Positions 1 to 9,943 of a DNA stretch of 48,938 nt are shown here, piece after piece; within the stretch, counting starts at the first letter, position 1, and the number at the start of each line of letters is the position of its first letter. Origin of the DNA: Rhodococcus sp. (in: high G+C Gram-positive bacteria) (GTDB lineage Bacteria > Actinomycetota > Actinomycetes > Mycobacteriales > Mycobacteriaceae). The stretch is taken from the NCBI GenBank assembly GCA_012514505.1, contig JAAZAD010000314.1, positions 1-48,938 on the forward strand, read 5' to 3'. The notes under the pieces were generated by a model, which was given only the letters and a program-made list of their open reading frames with translations, did not search any database and was not told the origin of the DNA. The position numbers were made by a program, and so were the translations under genes.

Positions 1-1
1 C

Positions 2-523
2 GCAATCGCACTGTTGGCAGTACCTGGGTTAGCCGCATGCAGTGCTGAGCCCGCGCCTGTCTCCGATCGCTCACTCACCGAGATGTGTGAACGCCCAGAA
101 CAGTTTCTAGTGGAGGTGTGGCACTTCGACGAATCTGTCGTTGGCAAACCGCAGCCAACGACAGATGAGAACTACGACGGCACGATCGGCTCTTCTGGCG
201 GGTGCCGATTCGAAGTAGACGGTGCTCGCATCGCATCGGTGTCCGTCTTGAGAGATGTCCCAGGGTTCCTCGAGCCCCCTCCTAGCGCAGACAAGATCCA
301 CATCGGACAGCACACTGTGGAGGCATGGGTTTCGGGTCCTGTCTCCTTGCAGTTCAAAACCGTGAACGGTGGCTGGCGTGGATCGTTCGGCCTGACTGTG
401 CCCAACGATCTCGCCACCCGAGAACCCGTCACCACAGACGAGCAGATGCAAGCTACCGCCACCGAACTTGTGGAGATCCTGGCCGAATTCAAAGGCCCGG
501 ACCATACCCCCACCCCGTACTAA
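2..523 (+). CDS. DUF3558-type lipoprotein, first of three tandem copies (5' end outside window)
   Basis: The reading frame is open to the left window edge. The first codons encode the hydrophobic end of a signal peptide and a lipobox (LAAC), so the mature protein should be a lipid-anchored envelope protein; a TTG at 14 is inside the signal peptide and is not the true start. The body has the pattern also seen in the next two copies: a short acidic/Ser stretch, LTEMCERPEQFL, a paired cysteine (SGGCRF), a central VSVLRDVPGF segment and a conserved C-terminal EFKGPD-TPTPY. This is the layout of DUF3558 lipoproteins of mycolata, whose function is unknown. The stop codon overlaps the next start by one base (TAATG, 521-525), so the pair is probably translationally coupled. 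Confidence 0.8.
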   Translation, partial: AIALLAVPGLAACSAEPAPVSDRSLTEMCERPEQFLVEVWHFDESVVGKPQPTTDENYDGTIGSSGGCRFEVDGARIASVSVLRDVPGFLEPPPSADKIHIGQHTVEAWVSGPVSLQFKTVNGGWRGSFGLTVPNDLATREPVTTDEQMQATATELVEILAEFKGPDHTPTPY

Positions 524-1083
524 TGGCCAGGCTGATGTCGCGATTGCCTGGCGTCGCAGTTGTCACCACTCTGGCCGTTGCGGTTCTAGCCGGATGCGCG
601 ACCGACCCACCGGAACTATCGGGCCACTCCCTCGCCGAATTCTGCGAACGACCCGAACAGTTCCTGACGGACGTCTGGCACTTCCCCAAGCCCGTCACCG
701 GCGAACCCACCTTCACGGACAAGGACCACCCCGGCAAGGTCGGTTACGGGAGTGGATGCGCCTTCGCCGCTAACGGCGATCGGATCGCCACACTAGGGCT
801 GATCAGAGAAGTTCGCGGAATCGGCGAACCACCCAACGATGCAGATTCGATTTACCTCGACGATCAGACCGTGAAGACTTGGGCCGTCGACAGCGCAACA
901 TTGTCGTTCGAAACAGCCATGGGAGGCTGGCAGGCGACAATCACGGTGACGTCGGGAGCCGATCTCGATACCCGCGAGCCCGCTGCCACCGATACCCAGA
1001 TGAACGCCACCGCACACGAGCTCATCGACATTCTCGCCGAGTTCAAAGGCCCTGACCGTACGCCTAGGGCGTGTCTCCTATAG
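523..1083 (+). CDS. DUF3558-type lipoprotein, second copy; 3' end altered by transposon insertion
   Basis: The start ATG at 523 overlaps the previous stop. It is followed by a signal peptide with lipobox VLAGC, then the same body as its neighbours (LAEFCERPEQFL, paired cysteine SGCAF). A longer open frame starts at 325, but that part is the out-of-frame shadow of copy 1. The C-terminus departs from the copies: instead of GPD-TPTPY or GPD-TPTPH it reads GPDRTP followed by RACLL, and those last codons are the left terminal repeat of the IS element beginning at 1067. Joining 1066 to 2702 restores GPDRTPNEY and a TGA that overlaps the ATG of copy 3. The protein is therefore nearly complete but has a transposon-derived tail, and coupling to copy 3 is lost. 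Confidence 0.85.
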   Translation: MARLMSRLPGVAVVTTLAVAVLAGCATDPPELSGHSLAEFCERPEQFLTDVWHFPKPVTGEPTFTDKDHPGKVGYGSGCAFAANGDRIATLGLIREVRGIGEPPNDADSIYLDDQTVKTWAVDSATLSFETAMGGWQATITVTSGADLDTREPAATDTQMNATAHELIDILAEFKGPDRTPRACLL

Positions 1084-1095
1084 CTAATCGGTGAC
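1067..1095 (+). repeat. Outer left terminal inverted repeat of the IS element
   Basis: It begins GGGCGTGTCTCCTATAGCT and continues to GGTGAC. The complement of 2671-2699 begins AGGCGTGTCTCCCATAGCT and also ends GGTGAC; 24 of 29 positions agree. It lies directly after the TA at 1065-1066. Confidence 0.85.
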
Positions 1096-1158
1096 CCACT
1101 GGATGGGGCGAGTAAGTGGGTGTGGGGGAGCCCGGGTCCTGCTTCTATGCGAAGTGCG

Positions 1159-1170
1159 GATAATAGGACA
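1159..1170 (+). promoter_or_regulatory. Likely leaderless promoter (-10) of the passenger kinase
   Basis: GATAAT at 1159-1164 stands six bases before a GTG codon at 1171 that is in frame with the kinase. This spacing fits a transcript starting on the GTG. No convincing -35 is seen. Confidence 0.4.
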
Positions 1171-1725
1171 GTGCTCAACGCTGATGACAGGATCACCTGG
1201 GGGCCTAAGCGCATCGCGGTAGCTGGAGTCTCTGGCTCGGGAAAGACGACCTTGTGCGATGAGCTGGCAGAAGTCCTGCGTTGCGAGCGCGTCGAGTTGG
1301 ACAGTCTCTACCACGGCCCAAACTGGACCCGGCGAGAGACTTTTCTCGAAGACGTAGAGGACTTGATCTCGACACCTTGCTGGGTTGTTGAATTGCAGTA
1401 CCGCGAAGCGCGGCCCCTTATCGTCTCCCGAGCTGACACCATCCTGTGGCTGGACTACCCGACAAGGATCCAGATGGCCCGCCTCATCCGTCGGACGGTC
1501 CGCCGACGCTTGCAGCGCGAGCAACTTTGGAACGGGAACTACGAGCCGCCGCTATGGAAAACCCTCATCGACGAGGACCACATTCTGCGATGGGGCTGGC
1601 ACACGCGGAAGAAGCTCAAGCCAGTGATACCGACGTTGGAGGGCCGGTTTCCCGGGCTACACGTTGTCCATCTGACGCATCCGTCACAGACCTCACAGTG
1701 GGTCCGCGCCCTGGCGAGAAGCTAG
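1171..1725 (+). CDS. P-loop NTPase of the adenylate-kinase-like/topology-modulation type, IS passenger
   Basis: The Walker A motif GVSGSGKTT lies about 15 residues after the GTG at 1171. The rest fits the small AAA/FlaR-like kinase group: VELDSLYHGPNW after the first strand, an IL-WLDYP segment where the family has its base-binding or Walker B strand, and basic RLIRRTVRRRLQRE and HTRKKLKP stretches that could close over a phosphate donor. The substrate cannot be told. GTG 1171 was preferred because of the -10 box just upstream; the frame is open back to 1120 with an ATG at 1147. The stop codon TAG (1723-1725) is made by the junction with the inner IS end, so the natural C-terminus may have been lost. 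The gene is a passenger that moved with the IS. Confidence 0.72.
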   Translation: MLNADDRITWGPKRIAVAGVSGSGKTTLCDELAEVLRCERVELDSLYHGPNWTRRETFLEDVEDLISTPCWVVELQYREARPLIVSRADTILWLDYPTRIQMARLIRRTVRRRLQREQLWNGNYEPPLWKTLIDEDHILRWGWHTRKKLKPVIPTLEGRFPGLHVVHLTHPSQTSQWVRALARS

Positions 1726-2381
1726 GGCGTCTCTCCTAAATGGCGTAGCCAGGTCAGGATGGCGCAGAGGGTGACGGCGGCGCGGTAGGTGATCGCGAGT
1801 TTGTCGTAGCGGGTGGCCAGGGCGCGCCACTGCTTGGCCAGAGCGAAGGAGCGCTCAACGACGTTTCGCCCTCTGTAGAGGTCAACGTCGAGTTTCGGCG
1901 GCCGGCCGCCGCGTCTTCCCCGCCGGGCGCGGGCGTCAATGGTGTCACTCTTCTCTGGGATCACGGCGGCGATATCGCGGCTGCGGAGCTGGCGGCGGAT
2001 CGTGCCGGACGAGTACGCCTTGTCTGCGATCACCGCGTCCGGGCGGGTGCGAGGCCGGCCACGGCCAAGGCGCGGTACATGGATGTCGGCCAGTACTTCA
2101 GCGAGCATCGCACCATCATTGCGCTGCCCGCCGGTGACCACATTCGCCAGCGGCCGGCCGCGGCCGTCGACGGCACTGTGGATTTTGGTCGTCAGCCCTC
2201 CTCGCGAGCGACCAATGCCGTGACCTGCGGGTTCACAGTCCCGGAAGGATCGGTTCTTGTGATTCGACCTGGCCCCCTGTGTCCTGATCAGGGCGGGTGG
2301 TGTTCGTGCCGTGCTGATGAGCACGGCAGATCGTCGCATCGACCGAAACGTTCCAGTCGATCTTTCCGGCCGCATCGGCAT
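1722..2381 (-). CDS. IS5-family transposase, second reading frame (OrfB, DDE domain C-terminal part)
   Basis: The frame holds the second and third parts of a DDE transposase: GHGIGRSRGGLTTKIHSAVD, then the second catalytic Asp in DAVIADKAYSS, then the Glu in VVERSFALAKQWRALATRYDK, ending LTWLRHLGETP. The first catalytic Asp is in the other frame (2233-2652). It is probably not translated from its own start but by frameshifting from OrfA: the homologous overlap contains a run of five G on the minus strand (complement of 2273-2277), and the OrfB frame is offset by +1 there. Both frames are free of stops across the expected domains, so the transposase may be active. The first part of the open frame, before about 2280, is probably not translated. 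Confidence 0.8.
   Translation of the reverse strand: MPMRPERSTGTFRSMRRSAVLISTARTPPALIRTQGARSNHKNRSFRDCEPAGHGIGRSRGGLTTKIHSAVDGRGRPLANVVTGGQRNDGAMLAEVLADIHVPRLGRGRPRTRPDAVIADKAYSSGTIRRQLRSRDIAAVIPEKSDTIDARARRGRRGGRPPKLDVDLYRGRNVVERSFALAKQWRALATRYDKLAITYRAAVTLCAILTWLRHLGETP
1725..1740 (+). repeat. Internal copy of the IS left end
   Basis: GGGCGTCTCTCCTAAA matches the outer left end (GGGCGTGTCTCCTATA) at 14 of 16 positions and is preceded by TA at 1723-1724. It lies directly next to the transposase stop codon (complement of 1722-1724), where an IS end would be expected. It is probably the original left end of the core IS. Confidence 0.7.
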
Positions 2382-2652
2382 CGGCCAGGATCACGTGCAA
2401 GATACGATCCCAGGTCCCGTCCCGTGCGTAGCGGGCGTGGCGCTTCCACACCGTCTGCCACGCCCCGTATTCGTCGCGGGGCAGATCCCGCCACGGGATC
2501 CCTGCTCGGTAGCGGTAGATGATCGCCTCGACGATCTTGCGGTTGTCTCGAAACGGATGCCCCTGCCGCCCTGCATTCGAGGGCAGCAGGGGCTCGATCC
2601 GCTCCCACTGCTCGTCGGTGAACTGGCGGAACCGTGACTTCGTCTGTCCCAT
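2233..2652 (-). CDS. IS5-family transposase, first reading frame (OrfA, DUF4096-like)
   Basis: It begins MGQTKSRFRQFTDEQWERI, typical of the N-terminal DUF4096-like domain of IS5/IS427 transposases, followed by YRYRAGIPWRDLP and the first catalytic Asp in DWNVSVDATICRAHQH. After the switch region the frame continues for about 15 unrelated residues to a stop at 2233. The start is 47 bases inside the right end of the element. Together with the overlapping frame it makes a complete DDE transposase, which depends on a ribosomal frameshift near 2273-2277. Confidence 0.82.
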   Translation of the reverse strand: MGQTKSRFRQFTDEQWERIEPLLPSNAGRQGHPFRDNRKIVEAIIYRYRAGIPWRDLPRDEYGAWQTVWKRHARYARDGTWDRILHVILADADAAGKIDWNVSVDATICRAHQHGTNTTRPDQDTGGQVESQEPILPGL

Positions 2653-2670
2653 ACGGCCACGGTCTCGCGA

Positions 2671-2699
2671 GTCACCGCCGAGCTATGGGAGACACGCCT
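2671..2699 (-). repeat. Right terminal inverted repeat of the IS element
   Basis: The complement begins AGGCGTGTCTCCCATAGCT, matching the outer left end at 24 of 29 positions. The flanking TA is at 2700-2701. Confidence 0.85.
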
Positions 2700-2711
2700 T
2701 AACGAGTACTG

Positions 2712-3254
2712 ATGTCGCGCCTGTCTTGCGCGGCCATCGCCGGCGCTCTGTCGGTACCGGTTCTAGCCGGATGCGGAGCGGACCCGGCACCGTTGTCGGA
2801 TCACTCCCTGACCGAACTATGCCAACAGCCGGAACAGTTGTTGGCTGACGTCTGGAATCTCCCCGAACCCGTTGTCGGCACAGCAAAAGTTCCCAACTCA
2901 GACCACATCGACAGAATTGGAGCCGGAGGTCATTGCACCTTCGACGCCAACGGAGCGAGTGTCGCCTCACTTTCGTTGATCCGTGATACCCCCGGTTTCG
3001 GAGACCCACCCAACGATGCGCATGCGATCTCCGTGGGTGAACATACCGTCAAGACCTGGGCAATCCATAGCATCCGACTGACCTTCGAGGCGGTAATAGG
3101 CGGCTGGGAGGCAAGCATCACCCTGACTCCGGGGGCCGACCTCCATACGGGCAAGCCGGCCGCCACCGATGACCAGATGAAAGCCACCGCAAACAAACTT
3201 GTCGACATACTCGCCGAGTTCAAAGGTCCCGACTTCACCCCGACACCACACTGA
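2712..3254 (+). CDS. DUF3558-type lipoprotein, third copy
   Basis: The ATG at 2712 is followed by a short signal peptide with lipobox VLAGC, then the same architecture as copies 1 and 2: LTELCQQPEQLL, a second cysteine in GGHCTF, the central LSLIRDTPGF and the C-terminus EFKGPDFTPTPH. It is probably a lipid-anchored envelope protein of unknown function. Before the IS insertion its start overlapped the stop of copy 2 (TGATG), exactly as copy 2 overlaps copy 1. It now sits 12 bases beyond the IS right end, and its expression would depend on read-through or on an outward promoter in the IS. Confidence 0.85.
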   Translation: MSRLSCAAIAGALSVPVLAGCGADPAPLSDHSLTELCQQPEQLLADVWNLPEPVVGTAKVPNSDHIDRIGAGGHCTFDANGASVASLSLIRDTPGFGDPPNDAHAISVGEHTVKTWAIHSIRLTFEAVIGGWEASITLTPGADLHTGKPAATDDQMKATANKLVDILAEFKGPDFTPTPH

Positions 3255-6522: not shown

Positions 6523-6757
6523 GGAATGCTCCTGAGCTGGATCGAATGGTTCGGTTGGTGCGTTGGGAAGAAGCTTGGACGCCGATTGGCACGAAAGAAA
6601 CGATTCGCCCGATAACCGGGGTTATCAACAGTCACCCGGCCACCCCATCTGATAGGGCTCTACCGTCGCCCCCATGAGTAATGGCGAGAAACTGGGCGAG
6701 CCGCCGCATGACCCCACCACCGGGCTTCTAAGTTGTGATGGTGGAAAGGTGCACGGA

Positions 6758-9700
6758 ATGAGCGATTCGCACGGATTGTCCGAGGACGACTGGGAGCACC
6801 TGGCTCTCGACACCCTCGGTGAGCTGGCCTGGAAGCCGCTACACGGGACGGCCATCGCACCCGGGACCGGCGAGCGCGATTCCTGGGACGAACTCGTGAT
6901 CGCCGCACGGCTGCGGTCGGCGATCGCCCAGCTCAATCCCGAACTGCCGCCGCACGTGGTGGACGAAGCCGTCACCCATGTCGTTACCGCCGGATCCACC
7001 AACGCGATCACCGAGAACGAGGTGATCCACGCGTACCTCACCACCGGTCTGCGGAAGATCAGCTACGTCGACGATTCCGGGGTGGAAATCACCCCGACGA
7101 TCCGCCTGGTGTCCGGCGAGGCCGACGACAACGACTGGCTGGCCGTCAACCAGGTGACGTTGGTGCAGGGCGACTACCGCCGCCGCTTCGACATCGTGCT
7201 GTACCTCAACGGCATGCCCGTCAGCATCGTCGAACTCAAACGCGGCGGCAGTGCTCACACCAGCCTCGCCGGGGCGCATGCCCAACTCGAAACGTATGTG
7301 CGCGAGTTCCCGCTGGCCTTCCGATTCGCGGTGTTCAATCTCGTCTCCGACGGCATCACCACCAGCTACGGCACCCCCTTCACCGCGTTCAACCACTTCG
7401 CACCCTGGAATGTGGACGACGATGGCAAGCCCGTCAGCCACTACGAGAGCGATACCACGTCTTTGGGCTTGGCCCTGCACGGCCTCTACACGCAGGGACG
7501 ATTCCTCTTGCTGCTGCGCGGCTTCACCGCGTTCGACAAGGACGAACGCGGCCTCGTGAAGCGAATCGCCAAGCCGCACCAATACTTCGCCGTCGCCAAG
7601 GCGGTGTGGTCGACTGTGCATGCGGTGGAAAGTCACGGCAAGGCCGGCGTCGTCTGGCACACCCAGGGTTCAGGCAAGTCCATGGAGATGGAGCTGTACG
7701 CCAACCAGGTGATCCGACACCAGAGCCTGGCGAATCCGACGATCGTCGTAGTCACCGACCGCACCGAACTCGACGGCCAGCTGTACGAGACGTTCGCGCG
7801 GTCGCAGCTTCTGCCCGAGCAGCCCCAGCAGATCCGTAAGCGTGAAGAACTGCGGCAAGAACTGTCCGGGCGCAACACTGGTGGCATCTACTTCACCACG
7901 TTGCAGAAGTTCGGGAAAACGAAGGAAGAGAAGGACTCCGGCGAAAGCCACCCACTACTGTCGTCGCGCCGCAACATCATCGTGGTGGTCGACGAAGCCC
8001 ACCGCAGCCACTACGACAACCTCGACGGGTACGCCCGACACCTCCGCGACGCGCTGCCCAACGCAACGCTCATCGCGTTCACGGGGACACCGATTTCCAC
8101 GGACGAACGCGACACCCGCGCCGTATTCGGCGACTACATCGACATCTACGACCTCACCCGCGCCGTCGCCGACGGTGCCACGGTGCCGGTGCACTTCGAA
8201 AGTCGGCTCGTGGAGGTGTCGTTCACGCCCGACGTCACCCAGGAAGAACTCGATGCCGCAGCCGATGCGGCCACCCAAGGTCTCGACGACACCGACCGCG
8301 ACCGCATCGAGAAGAGTGTCGCGGTGGTCAACGCCGTATACGGCGCACCCGCACGCCTGCGGCAGCTGGCCGAAGACATCGTCGATCACTGGGAAAAGCG
8401 CAGGAAGGCGATGAGCACCTTCGTCTCCTCCGACGACAACCCGACCGCACCCGGGAAGGCGATGGTCGTGGGCGCCACCCGTGAGATCTGCGCAAACCTC
8501 TACGCGGAGATCGTGAAACTACGACCCGAATGGCACTCCGACGACCTCGCCGCCGGACGCATCAAGGTGGTCTATTCGGGCAACGCAACGGACACGCCAC
8601 CCATCAGTGAGCACGTGCGGCGAGATTCGGCCAACGCCACGATCAAGAAGCGGCTCAAGAACATCGACGACGAGCTGGAAATCGTCATCGTCAAAGACAT
8701 GATGCTCACCGGGTACGACTCACCCCCGCTGCACACCATGTACCTGGACCGCCCCCTCAAGGGCGCCCTGCTGATGCAGGCACTCGCCCGCGTCAACCGC
8801 ACATTCCGGAGCAAACAGGACGGCCTGCTGGTCGCCTACGCTCCGATCGTCGACAACCTCGCCGAGGCTCTCGCCGAATACACCGAATCCGATCAGGCAT
8901 CCAAGCCGCTCGGCCGCGACATCGACGCCGCCGTCGACGCCGCCAAAGATCTGATCACTCTGATCGAGAACCTGCTGCACGGATTCGACTGGCGAGCCGA
9001 GCTGAAATCCACCGGCCCGGACGCATACTTCCGAGCCGCACAGGCCACGATCAACTATTTGCGGGATCCGCGTCTCCCGGAAAATCAGGTCGGCGAGGGC
9101 GAAGAAACGCTTACCGACCGCTTCCGGAAATTTGCCTCGCAGCTCTCGCGCACGTGGGCAATCTGCGGAAACCGCGAGGAACTTCGGGAGTACGCACCCG
9201 TAGCCAGGTTCTTCGAAGAAATGCGCGTCTACATGGCGAAGTGGGATGCCCAGGCCCGCCAGGCCAACGGCGAAGCGATTCCCGAAGACATCAAACGTGC
9301 CCTGCGCCAATTGATGGCGGCCTCCGTCGAGTCCGGCAAGGTCTTGGACATCTACGACGCCGCCGGCATGCCGCGTCCCGAACTCCGCGACATCAACGTC
9401 GACTTCATCAACAAGACCAAAGAGGCGAAGAACCCCAACCTCGCGATCGAGGCCCTGCGACGCCTCATCGACGAAGAGTCCCGCAAGGCCGTCAAGCACA
9501 ACGTCATACGCCAGCGCGCATTCTCCGAGAAGTTGCAGGACCTGATGGTGAAATACACCAACAGCCAACTCACCTCGGCGGAAGTCATTGCCGCGCTCGT
9601 CGAAGTGGCCCAAGAAGTGGTGGCCGAATCCGACCGCGGCAAGAACTTCACTCCCCCGCTGTCCGATGACGAACTCGCCTTCTACGACGCCGTGTCCCAG

Positions 9701-9943
9701 AACGAGTCGGCTGTCGAGGAACAGGGCGACACCAAGCTCGCGGCGATCGCCCGCGACCTCGTTGCCGTCATGCGCCGCGACGTCCGCACCGACTGGACCG
9801 TCCGTGAGGACGTCAAGGCGCGCCTGCGCTCACAGATCAAACGGCTACTCGCGAAGCACGGTTACCCGCCGGACAAGCAGCCCGCCGCCGTCAAGCTCAT
9901 CATCGAGCAAATGGAAGTACTGGCACCGACGATGGCTGCGTAG
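6758..9943 (+). CDS. hsdR: Type I restriction enzyme R subunit (HsdR), no HsdM/HsdS nearby
   Basis: The protein has 1,061 residues, usual for HsdR. In order: an N-terminal nuclease domain with the PD-(D/E)xK signature in FDIVLYLNGMPVSIVELKR (about 144-163); Walker A TQGSGKS at about 305; the DEAH box VVDEAHRSHY at about 412; TGTP at about 441; helicase motif VI in ALARVNRTFRSKQDG; and a long C-terminal domain that normally docks on HsdM. It would cut and translocate DNA in an R2M2S complex. The start ATG 6758 is preceded by GGAAAGG at a good distance and gives the usual MS-SHGLSEDDWEHLAL beginning; ATG 6674 is an in-frame alternative. Modification and specificity subunits are absent here, so they must lie elsewhere or the gene is an orphan. 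Confidence 0.92.
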   Translation: MSDSHGLSEDDWEHLALDTLGELAWKPLHGTAIAPGTGERDSWDELVIAARLRSAIAQLNPELPPHVVDEAVTHVVTAGSTNAITENEVIHAYLTTGLRKISYVDDSGVEITPTIRLVSGEADDNDWLAVNQVTLVQGDYRRRFDIVLYLNGMPVSIVELKRGGSAHTSLAGAHAQLETYVREFPLAFRFAVFNLVSDGITTSYGTPFTAFNHFAPWNVDDDGKPVSHYESDTTSLGLALHGLYTQGRFLLLLRGFTAFDKDERGLVKRIAKPHQYFAVAKAVWSTVHAVESHGKAGVVWHTQGSGKSMEMELYANQVIRHQSLANPTIVVVTDRTELDGQLYETFARSQLLPEQPQQIRKREELRQELSGRNTGGIYFTTLQKFGKTKEEKDSGESHPLLSSRRNIIVVVDEAHRSHYDNLDGYARHLRDALPNATLIAFTGTPISTDERDTRAVFGDYIDIYDLTRAVADGATVPVHFESRLVEVSFTPDVTQEELDAAADAATQGLDDTDRDRIEKSVAVVNAVYGAPARLRQLAEDIVDHWEKRRKAMSTFVSSDDNPTAPGKAMVVGATREICANLYAEIVKLRPEWHSDDLAAGRIKVVYSGNATDTPPISEHVRRDSANATIKKRLKNIDDELEIVIVKDMMLTGYDSPPLHTMYLDRPLKGALLMQALARVNRTFRSKQDGLLVAYAPIVDNLAEALAEYTESDQASKPLGRDIDAAVDAAKDLITLIENLLHGFDWRAELKSTGPDAYFRAAQATINYLRDPRLPENQVGEGEETLTDRFRKFASQLSRTWAICGNREELREYAPVARFFEEMRVYMAKWDAQARQANGEAIPEDIKRALRQLMAASVESGKVLDIYDAAGMPRPELRDINVDFINKTKEAKNPNLAIEALRRLIDEESRKAVKHNVIRQRAFSEKLQDLMVKYTNSQLTSAEVIAALVEVAQEVVAESDRGKNFTPPLSDDELAFYDAVSQNESAVEEQGDTKLAAIARDLVAVMRRDVRTDWTVREDVKARLRSQIKRLLAKHGYPPDKQPAAVKLIIEQMEVLAPTMAA

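Follow-up and report, generated by a model that had tools for sequence, protein, structure and literature searches.

At the start of a 48,938-nucleotide stretch of DNA from Rhodococcus sp., referred to here at its full length as the window, a lipoprotein gene is interrupted by a P-loop kinase gene and an insertion sequence (IS), which raises the question of whether the kinase gene and the IS arrived separately or moved as one unit. The interrupted gene is copy 2 (523 to 1083, forward strand), the second of three tandem lipoprotein genes, which is broken three residues before its end and now terminates with GPDRTPRACLL inside the outer end of the insert, copy 3 lying at 2712 to 3254 on the same strand. 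The unit of kinase and IS occupies positions 1067 to 2699 (1,633 bp) and is bordered by a TA target duplication, carrying no strand, at 1065 to 1066 on the left and 2700 to 2701 on the right. When the flanks are joined (1066 to 2702, giving cgccTAacgag), the end of copy 2, GPDRTPNEY followed by a stop codon, is restored, and the stop overlaps the start codon of copy 3 as TGATG; copy 1 ends in GPDHTPTPY and runs through TAATG into copy 2, and copy 3 ends in GPDFTPTPH. An earlier note on this DNA had given these coordinates and an exact reconstruction of the target, both of which are borne out.

An empty form of this insertion site was not found by a lipoprotein search of 28 genomes of the genus (3 with a match, the source genome included), 201 genomes of the family (3 with a match, the source genome included), and plasmids (none); beyond the three copies of the window there were three weak matches, with 22%, 27%, and 40% identity over part of the sequence. 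The three tandem lipoprotein genes, in window positions 1 to 3254, are accordingly without a close homolog in these collections. Further along, a region at about 7093 to 8925, within an open reading frame (ORF) at 6674 to 9943, is approximately 74-75% similar to type I restriction R subunit genes, its relatives being located on Paenarthrobacter and Arthrobacter plasmids, and possible defence genes would then adjoin the locus. The source assembly is a draft (609 contigs, 6.9% contamination), and the contig may therefore come from a relative.

The IS carries two overlapping transposase ORFs on the reverse strand, ORF A (DUF4096, IS5 family) at 2233 to 2652 and ORF B (DDE_Tnp_1, IS5 family) at 1722 to 2381, which match the IS5-family model NF033580 of NCBIfam with 123.1 and 143.7 bits against a cutoff of 110. 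This frameshift-type layout is present in the window and in the kinase-free copies L032 and L033, and its retention in the copies of Dietzia kunjamensis and Rhodococcus qingshengii, which are about 12% apart from that of the window, speaks against decay. A G-run on the reverse strand in the overlap of the two ORFs (2273 to 2277) is a candidate frameshift site. The 2-bp TA target duplication, a feature of that group, is present at the window site, at the Dietzia plasmid site described below (L031), and at L032 and L033. Because the NF033580 match, the 2-bp TA duplication, and the two overlapping ORFs coincide, the assignment to the IS427 group of the IS5 family is supported, in agreement with the earlier description of the element as IS5/IS427-like. 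The targets of IS5-type elements are labelled Y-TA-R, and in the window unit only TA is common to both sides. For IS5 of Escherichia coli, a 4-bp target consensus of C-A/T-A-G/A has been given (PMC11677980).

The transposase has no stop codon of its own; its TAG (1724-1722) is supplied by the C-TA of the target. On the other side, the kinase stop codon, TAG at 1723-1725, is composed of TA and the first G of the IS end, and the converging kinase (forward) and transposase (reverse) genes therefore both stop at a single CTAG (1722 to 1725, no strand), the inner TA of which lies at 1723-1724.

The unit has three ends rather than two. The outer left end (OL) begins at 1067 and extends to 1097 on the forward strand (GGGCGTGTCTCCTATAGCTAATCGGTGACCC), the inner left IS end (IRL) begins at 1725 and extends to 1745 on the forward strand, and the right IS end (IRR) occupies 2666 to 2699 on the reverse strand, with T as the terminal base at 2699 in the window and C in the Dietzia plasmid copy. 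The inner end is worn: it reads GGGCGTCTCTCCTAAATGGCG, where the copies of D. kunjamensis and R. qingshengii have GGGCGTGTCTCCCAATTGGCG. The bare IS, bounded on the left by this inner end, corresponds to 1725-2699 (975 bp), because kinase-free IS copies match only from about 1722 to 2701. Over about 34 bp, OL resembles IRR and not IRL (GGGCGTGTCTCCTATAGCTAATCGGTGACCC compared with GGGCGTGTCTCCCATAGTTAAGCGGTAACCC of D. kunjamensis), and it matches the right IS ends of the plasmid copy and of related IS copies over 32-34 bp with 87.5-91% identity and E values of 1.5e-4 to 7.9e-8. Beyond about 34 bp, OL has no match in the plasmid collection except the unit itself. The outer ends of the unit as originally proposed are thus real, and the refinement consists in the third, inner end at 1725 and in the outer left end being of the IRR rather than the IRL type.

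Fourteen occurrences of a pattern of the OL-type end, mostly at right ends of IS copies, were found in 11 of 23 Dietzia genomes, against none for the reversed control pattern; together with the 87.5-91% matches, this led to the rejection of OL as a chance sequence. The same pattern had no match in viral collections, and the whole unit had none in phages. Dietzia genomes also contain a solo IRR-type end of 38 bp (L163) and a 76-bp near-palindrome bounded by two IRR-type ends (L167 5597-5672; G442:C19), a miniature element of which one copy was seen. A strict pattern for miniature elements found none in 23 genomes, and this pattern could not match even the known 76-bp element.

The passenger is a P-loop kinase of 184 amino acids at 1171 to 1725 on the forward strand, with the GTG start as annotated in the Dietzia record. 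A GATAAT at 1159 to 1164 (forward strand), 6 nt before the GTG, may be the -10 element of a leaderless promoter belonging to the kinase itself, and the stretch containing it is conserved in the Dietzia aurantiaca alignment. The earlier term adenylate-kinase-like holds at the P-loop level and not as a closer class: matches to Pfam are restricted to sub-threshold P-loop families (AAA_18, 24.3 against 29.4 bits), and those to NCBIfam are also sub-threshold, the best being NF005994 with 58.1 bits against a cutoff of 215. The PRK08118-type 'DNA topology modulation' proteins of NF005994 share the P-loop part of the sequence, but the kinase is not a member of that family by score and carries WVxExQY rather than the WIIDGNY-type motif of that family. 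Likewise, matches to PDB sequences are short and located around the P-loop (best E 0.0013), and the single-sequence AlphaFold2 model is poor (mean pLDDT 42.6).

At E 0.001, the kinase has a match in 153 of 397 genomes of the order, its own included, and the weaker of these matches may be other P-loop kinases. In an alignment of the window sequence with 33 homologs, as judged from the first 16 of the 34 sequences, it keeps the motifs GxSGSGKTT, ExDSLxHGPxW, WVxExQY, WLDxP, and LWNGNxEPPL of the better homologs, and among these it thereby shares family motifs with actinobacterial proteins found elsewhere in the order. The closest kinases outside the unit are encoded in 3 of 23 Dietzia genomes (70-71% amino acid identity; the next reach 52-54%), which makes a Dietzia-like genome the probable source of the gene. 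No IS ends were found near these Dietzia kinases in the stretches examined, and no relatives of the kinase were found in viral collections. For the kinase, comparison of the window with D. aurantiaca gives 21 synonymous changes over 138 sites and 17 nonsynonymous changes over 414 (Fisher p 4.5e-5; dN/dS 0.25), and the gene appears to be intact and to have been under purifying selection as it diverged.

Whether the kinase and the IS move together is addressed by copies at other sites. The plasmid NZ_CP027239.1 of Dietzia sp. oral taxon 368 (L031) carries the whole unit at 73431-74992, matching that of the window in two pieces (99.7% and 98.8%) and sitting at a different TA-flanked target, GCGG-C-TA / TA-G-TTGG compared with ACGC-C-TA / TA-A-CGAG in the window; the plasmid target is the C-TA-G of the stop codon of an Lsr2 gene. 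OL and the kinase are identical in the two copies, and the IS part differs by 5 substitutions and a 74-bp deletion in the transposase. It is the only one of 72,556 plasmid records, 260 of them with some match, in which 80% or more of the unit is present. The earlier note held that kinase and IS moved as one transposon with a TA duplication and proposed looking for further copies of the whole unit at other TA-flanked targets; the plasmid copy is such a copy and supports the claim, and a third site, with OL and the kinase, exists in D. aurantiaca. The kinase lies between OL and IRR at both complete sites, as a passenger between moving ends would in a transporter IS.

At the third site (NZ_JAIFXZ010000011.1, L034), OL and the kinase are present at 91% identity over 671 bp without the IS. 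To the right, the kinase stop region reads GAGAAGC-TA-GCTGAAG and continues into host DNA; to the left of OL, CA stands where TA would be expected, so that one of the six outer dinucleotides over the three sites reads CA and the rest read TA. The sister genome G443, with flanks 97% and 95% identical to those of D. aurantiaca, has the empty site, CGGTCGGC-TA-GCCGAAG, with no insert. Elsewhere in the D. aurantiaca genome, nothing matches the unit at E 0.001. Other collections yielded few relatives: near-full-length OL plus kinase was found only in the source genome and in D. aurantiaca (G498) among 401 family genomes (36 with some match), the full unit only in the source genome among 397 order genomes (16 with some match), and in the contig collection 22 stretches matched a pattern, 3 of them relatives, one of these close. 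Kinase-free IS copies of 966-975 bp occur in L033 and L032 with C-TA...TA-G flanks, and on plasmids the four best records (H2-H5) are 86-88% identical to the IS of the window.

These sites bear directly on one alternative, a plain nested insertion in which the IS landed beside a resident kinase, OL is a chance sequence or solo relic, and the lipoprotein junctions have nothing to do with movement of the kinase. The solo 38-bp end and the 76-bp two-ended element in Dietzia speak in its favour, but the joined flanks restore both the lipoprotein end and the gene overlap, and the OL-kinase block recurs with other flanks in two more genomes, one of them having an empty sister site. Contradicted by three different flanks, this alternative was rejected and can be regarded as extremely improbable.

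The D. aurantiaca site could also be taken as ancestral, with OL and the kinase forming an older small mobile cassette with its own right terminus, at the edge of which the IS later landed. Such an origin would fit the OL-kinase block standing without an IS between CA and TA, in a genome lacking any further match to the unit, but the kinase-side edge (GAGAAGC) has no IS-like end, the IS would have needed to land exactly on the duplicated TA, and a whole unit that had lost precisely its IS would account for that edge as well; we consider the cassette unlikely. The simplest account of the D. aurantiaca state would be that the whole unit was inserted and the IS was later lost exactly, since such a loss would leave just the right edge that is observed. 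For IS5, one case of exact excision has been mentioned (PMC11677980).

A further alternative starts from a composite transposon whose second IS copy was mostly lost and which never behaved as a lasting unit. It draws on the IRR type of OL and on pairs of this particular IS flanking other genes (L173, L168), but the reduced form, consisting of a 34-bp tip, the kinase, and one IS, occupies different targets in the window and the plasmid, and thus seems to have moved itself. The two flanking IS copies that define a composite transposon are not present here, where there is one IS and, on the left side, a 34-bp IRR-type end. This alternative is improbable; as an account of origin it merges with the preferred explanation.

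According to that explanation, which we hold to be very probable on the comparison of sites, the unit is a transporter IS of the IS427 group in the IS5 family. A complete IS would have inserted at C-TA-G at the 3' end of a Dietzia-type kinase gene, on whose other side a spare IRR-type end (OL) was present. The transposase of the IS, presumably the acting enzyme, would then have paired OL with the distal IRR, bypassing the worn inner IRL, and OL, kinase, and IS would have entered C-TA-R targets together, duplicating TA. OL itself may descend from a second IS copy that decayed. The parts directly visible are the unit or the OL-kinase block at three sites, the TA flanks, one empty sister site, and the IRR-like outer end, and from comparison of these sites the unit appears to move as one. 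A worn inner IRL would favour the use of OL; the only other complete unit found, with its transposase deleted, is very close to that of the window, and the worn inner end in the two copies is therefore not independent evidence.

Related arrangements exist elsewhere. In the same family, L186 72-2561 (G584:C3) contains an IS 86% identical to that of the window, with IRL at 72 and a worn IRR at 1050, followed by a dprE1 gene (760 bits against NF053785, cutoff 500) whose C-terminus runs into the IS end. The outer end at 2561, TAGGGCGTGTCTCCTATAGCTAAGCGGTGA, is 97% identical over 30 bp to the OL of the window, TA is found at both outer ends, and the passenger lies on the IRR side. This is a probable second three-ended unit of the same IS group, with dprE1 as passenger. 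In plasmid records, its passenger stretch has only 60-80% relatives (7 records), and a search of titles and abstract openings found no mobile dprE1 in the literature on dprE1 and transposons.

Other genes are also associated with these IS copies. On R. qingshengii pCP2, an inverted pair of bare IS (L173 2083-17162) surrounds a stretch of about 13 kb that includes merA and merB among other genes and is a possible composite transposon. A 2.93-kb segment adjoining IS copies (L168 6142-9070 and L187) is shared at 99.7% identity by two genomes that belong to different genera and, by eye, looks to carry a multicopper oxidase gene.

The TA target was part of a TAG stop codon at 3 of 10 insertion points with inspected neighbours, as a raw count: at the Lsr2 gene (L031), a membrane-protein ORF (L034), and a recombinase gene (L175). 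The remaining points are in the window, L032, L174, L176, and L177, with two on L173; the IS in L176 and L177 are only about 75% like that of the window, and the count excludes a partial copy in L178 and IS copies in unannotated genomes. The kinase stop is a site of the same TAG type. TAG stop codons can supply the C-TA-R target, and the IS would then be able to insert precisely at the 3' terminus of a gene that stays intact.

Transporter IS (tIS) are defined in PMC9330008, and tIS-type elements are described in the IS481, ISL3, and ISNCY families (PMC6305408). The present unit resembles them in being an IS derivative with a passenger gene inside ends that would move together, but it differs in that the inner end of the bare IS is still visible and the passenger lies outside the bare IS. 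Transposable modules (TMo) of the IS1380 family (ISPme1 and ISEcp1; PMC9330008) similarly combine one IS with adjacent DNA through an alternative end; they use variable end-like regions, whereas the present unit has a 34-bp IRR-type end and the same endpoints in two complete units. The IS427-group elements IS1248 and ISPsp10 share the 2-bp duplication, short ends, and two overlapping ORFs (PMC3281130, PMC4133298), and in the entries seen in these sources the duplication is 2 bp except for ISPha1 (4), being TA for ISPsp10. The transposase stop of ISPsp10 is taken from the target (PMC4133298), as in the present unit. These IS427 entries measure 832-865 bp compared with 975 bp for the bare IS, and a passenger in the IS427 group was not found described in the parts of these sources available. 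Judged by title and abstract opening, none of the papers listed in literature searches, which covered sources other than ISfinder and most subscription journals, deals with a kinase-carrying IS427-group element.

The kinase and dprE1 units, with a near-equal outer end and a worn inner end, may be independent products of an IS group acting as a recurrent gene-capture device, a reading to which we give somewhat less than an even chance. If it is true, a spare OL/IRR-type end beyond a gene turns that gene into cargo. The states that lead from a minimal IS to a gene carrier can be put in order: the bare IS; the IS at the 3' end of a gene with a spare end beyond it; the unit at different sites, in Dietzia and presumably in Rhodococcus; and a remnant with the gene and without the IS. 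A stop-codon target combined with a spare end would constitute a capture rule testable across genomes. The ends that bound the IS in both complete units are absent from annotation, which suggests that the cargo of very simple transposons readily escapes notice. The related copies in three actinobacterial genomes further suggest how an ordinary gene can become the cargo of a very simple mobile element.
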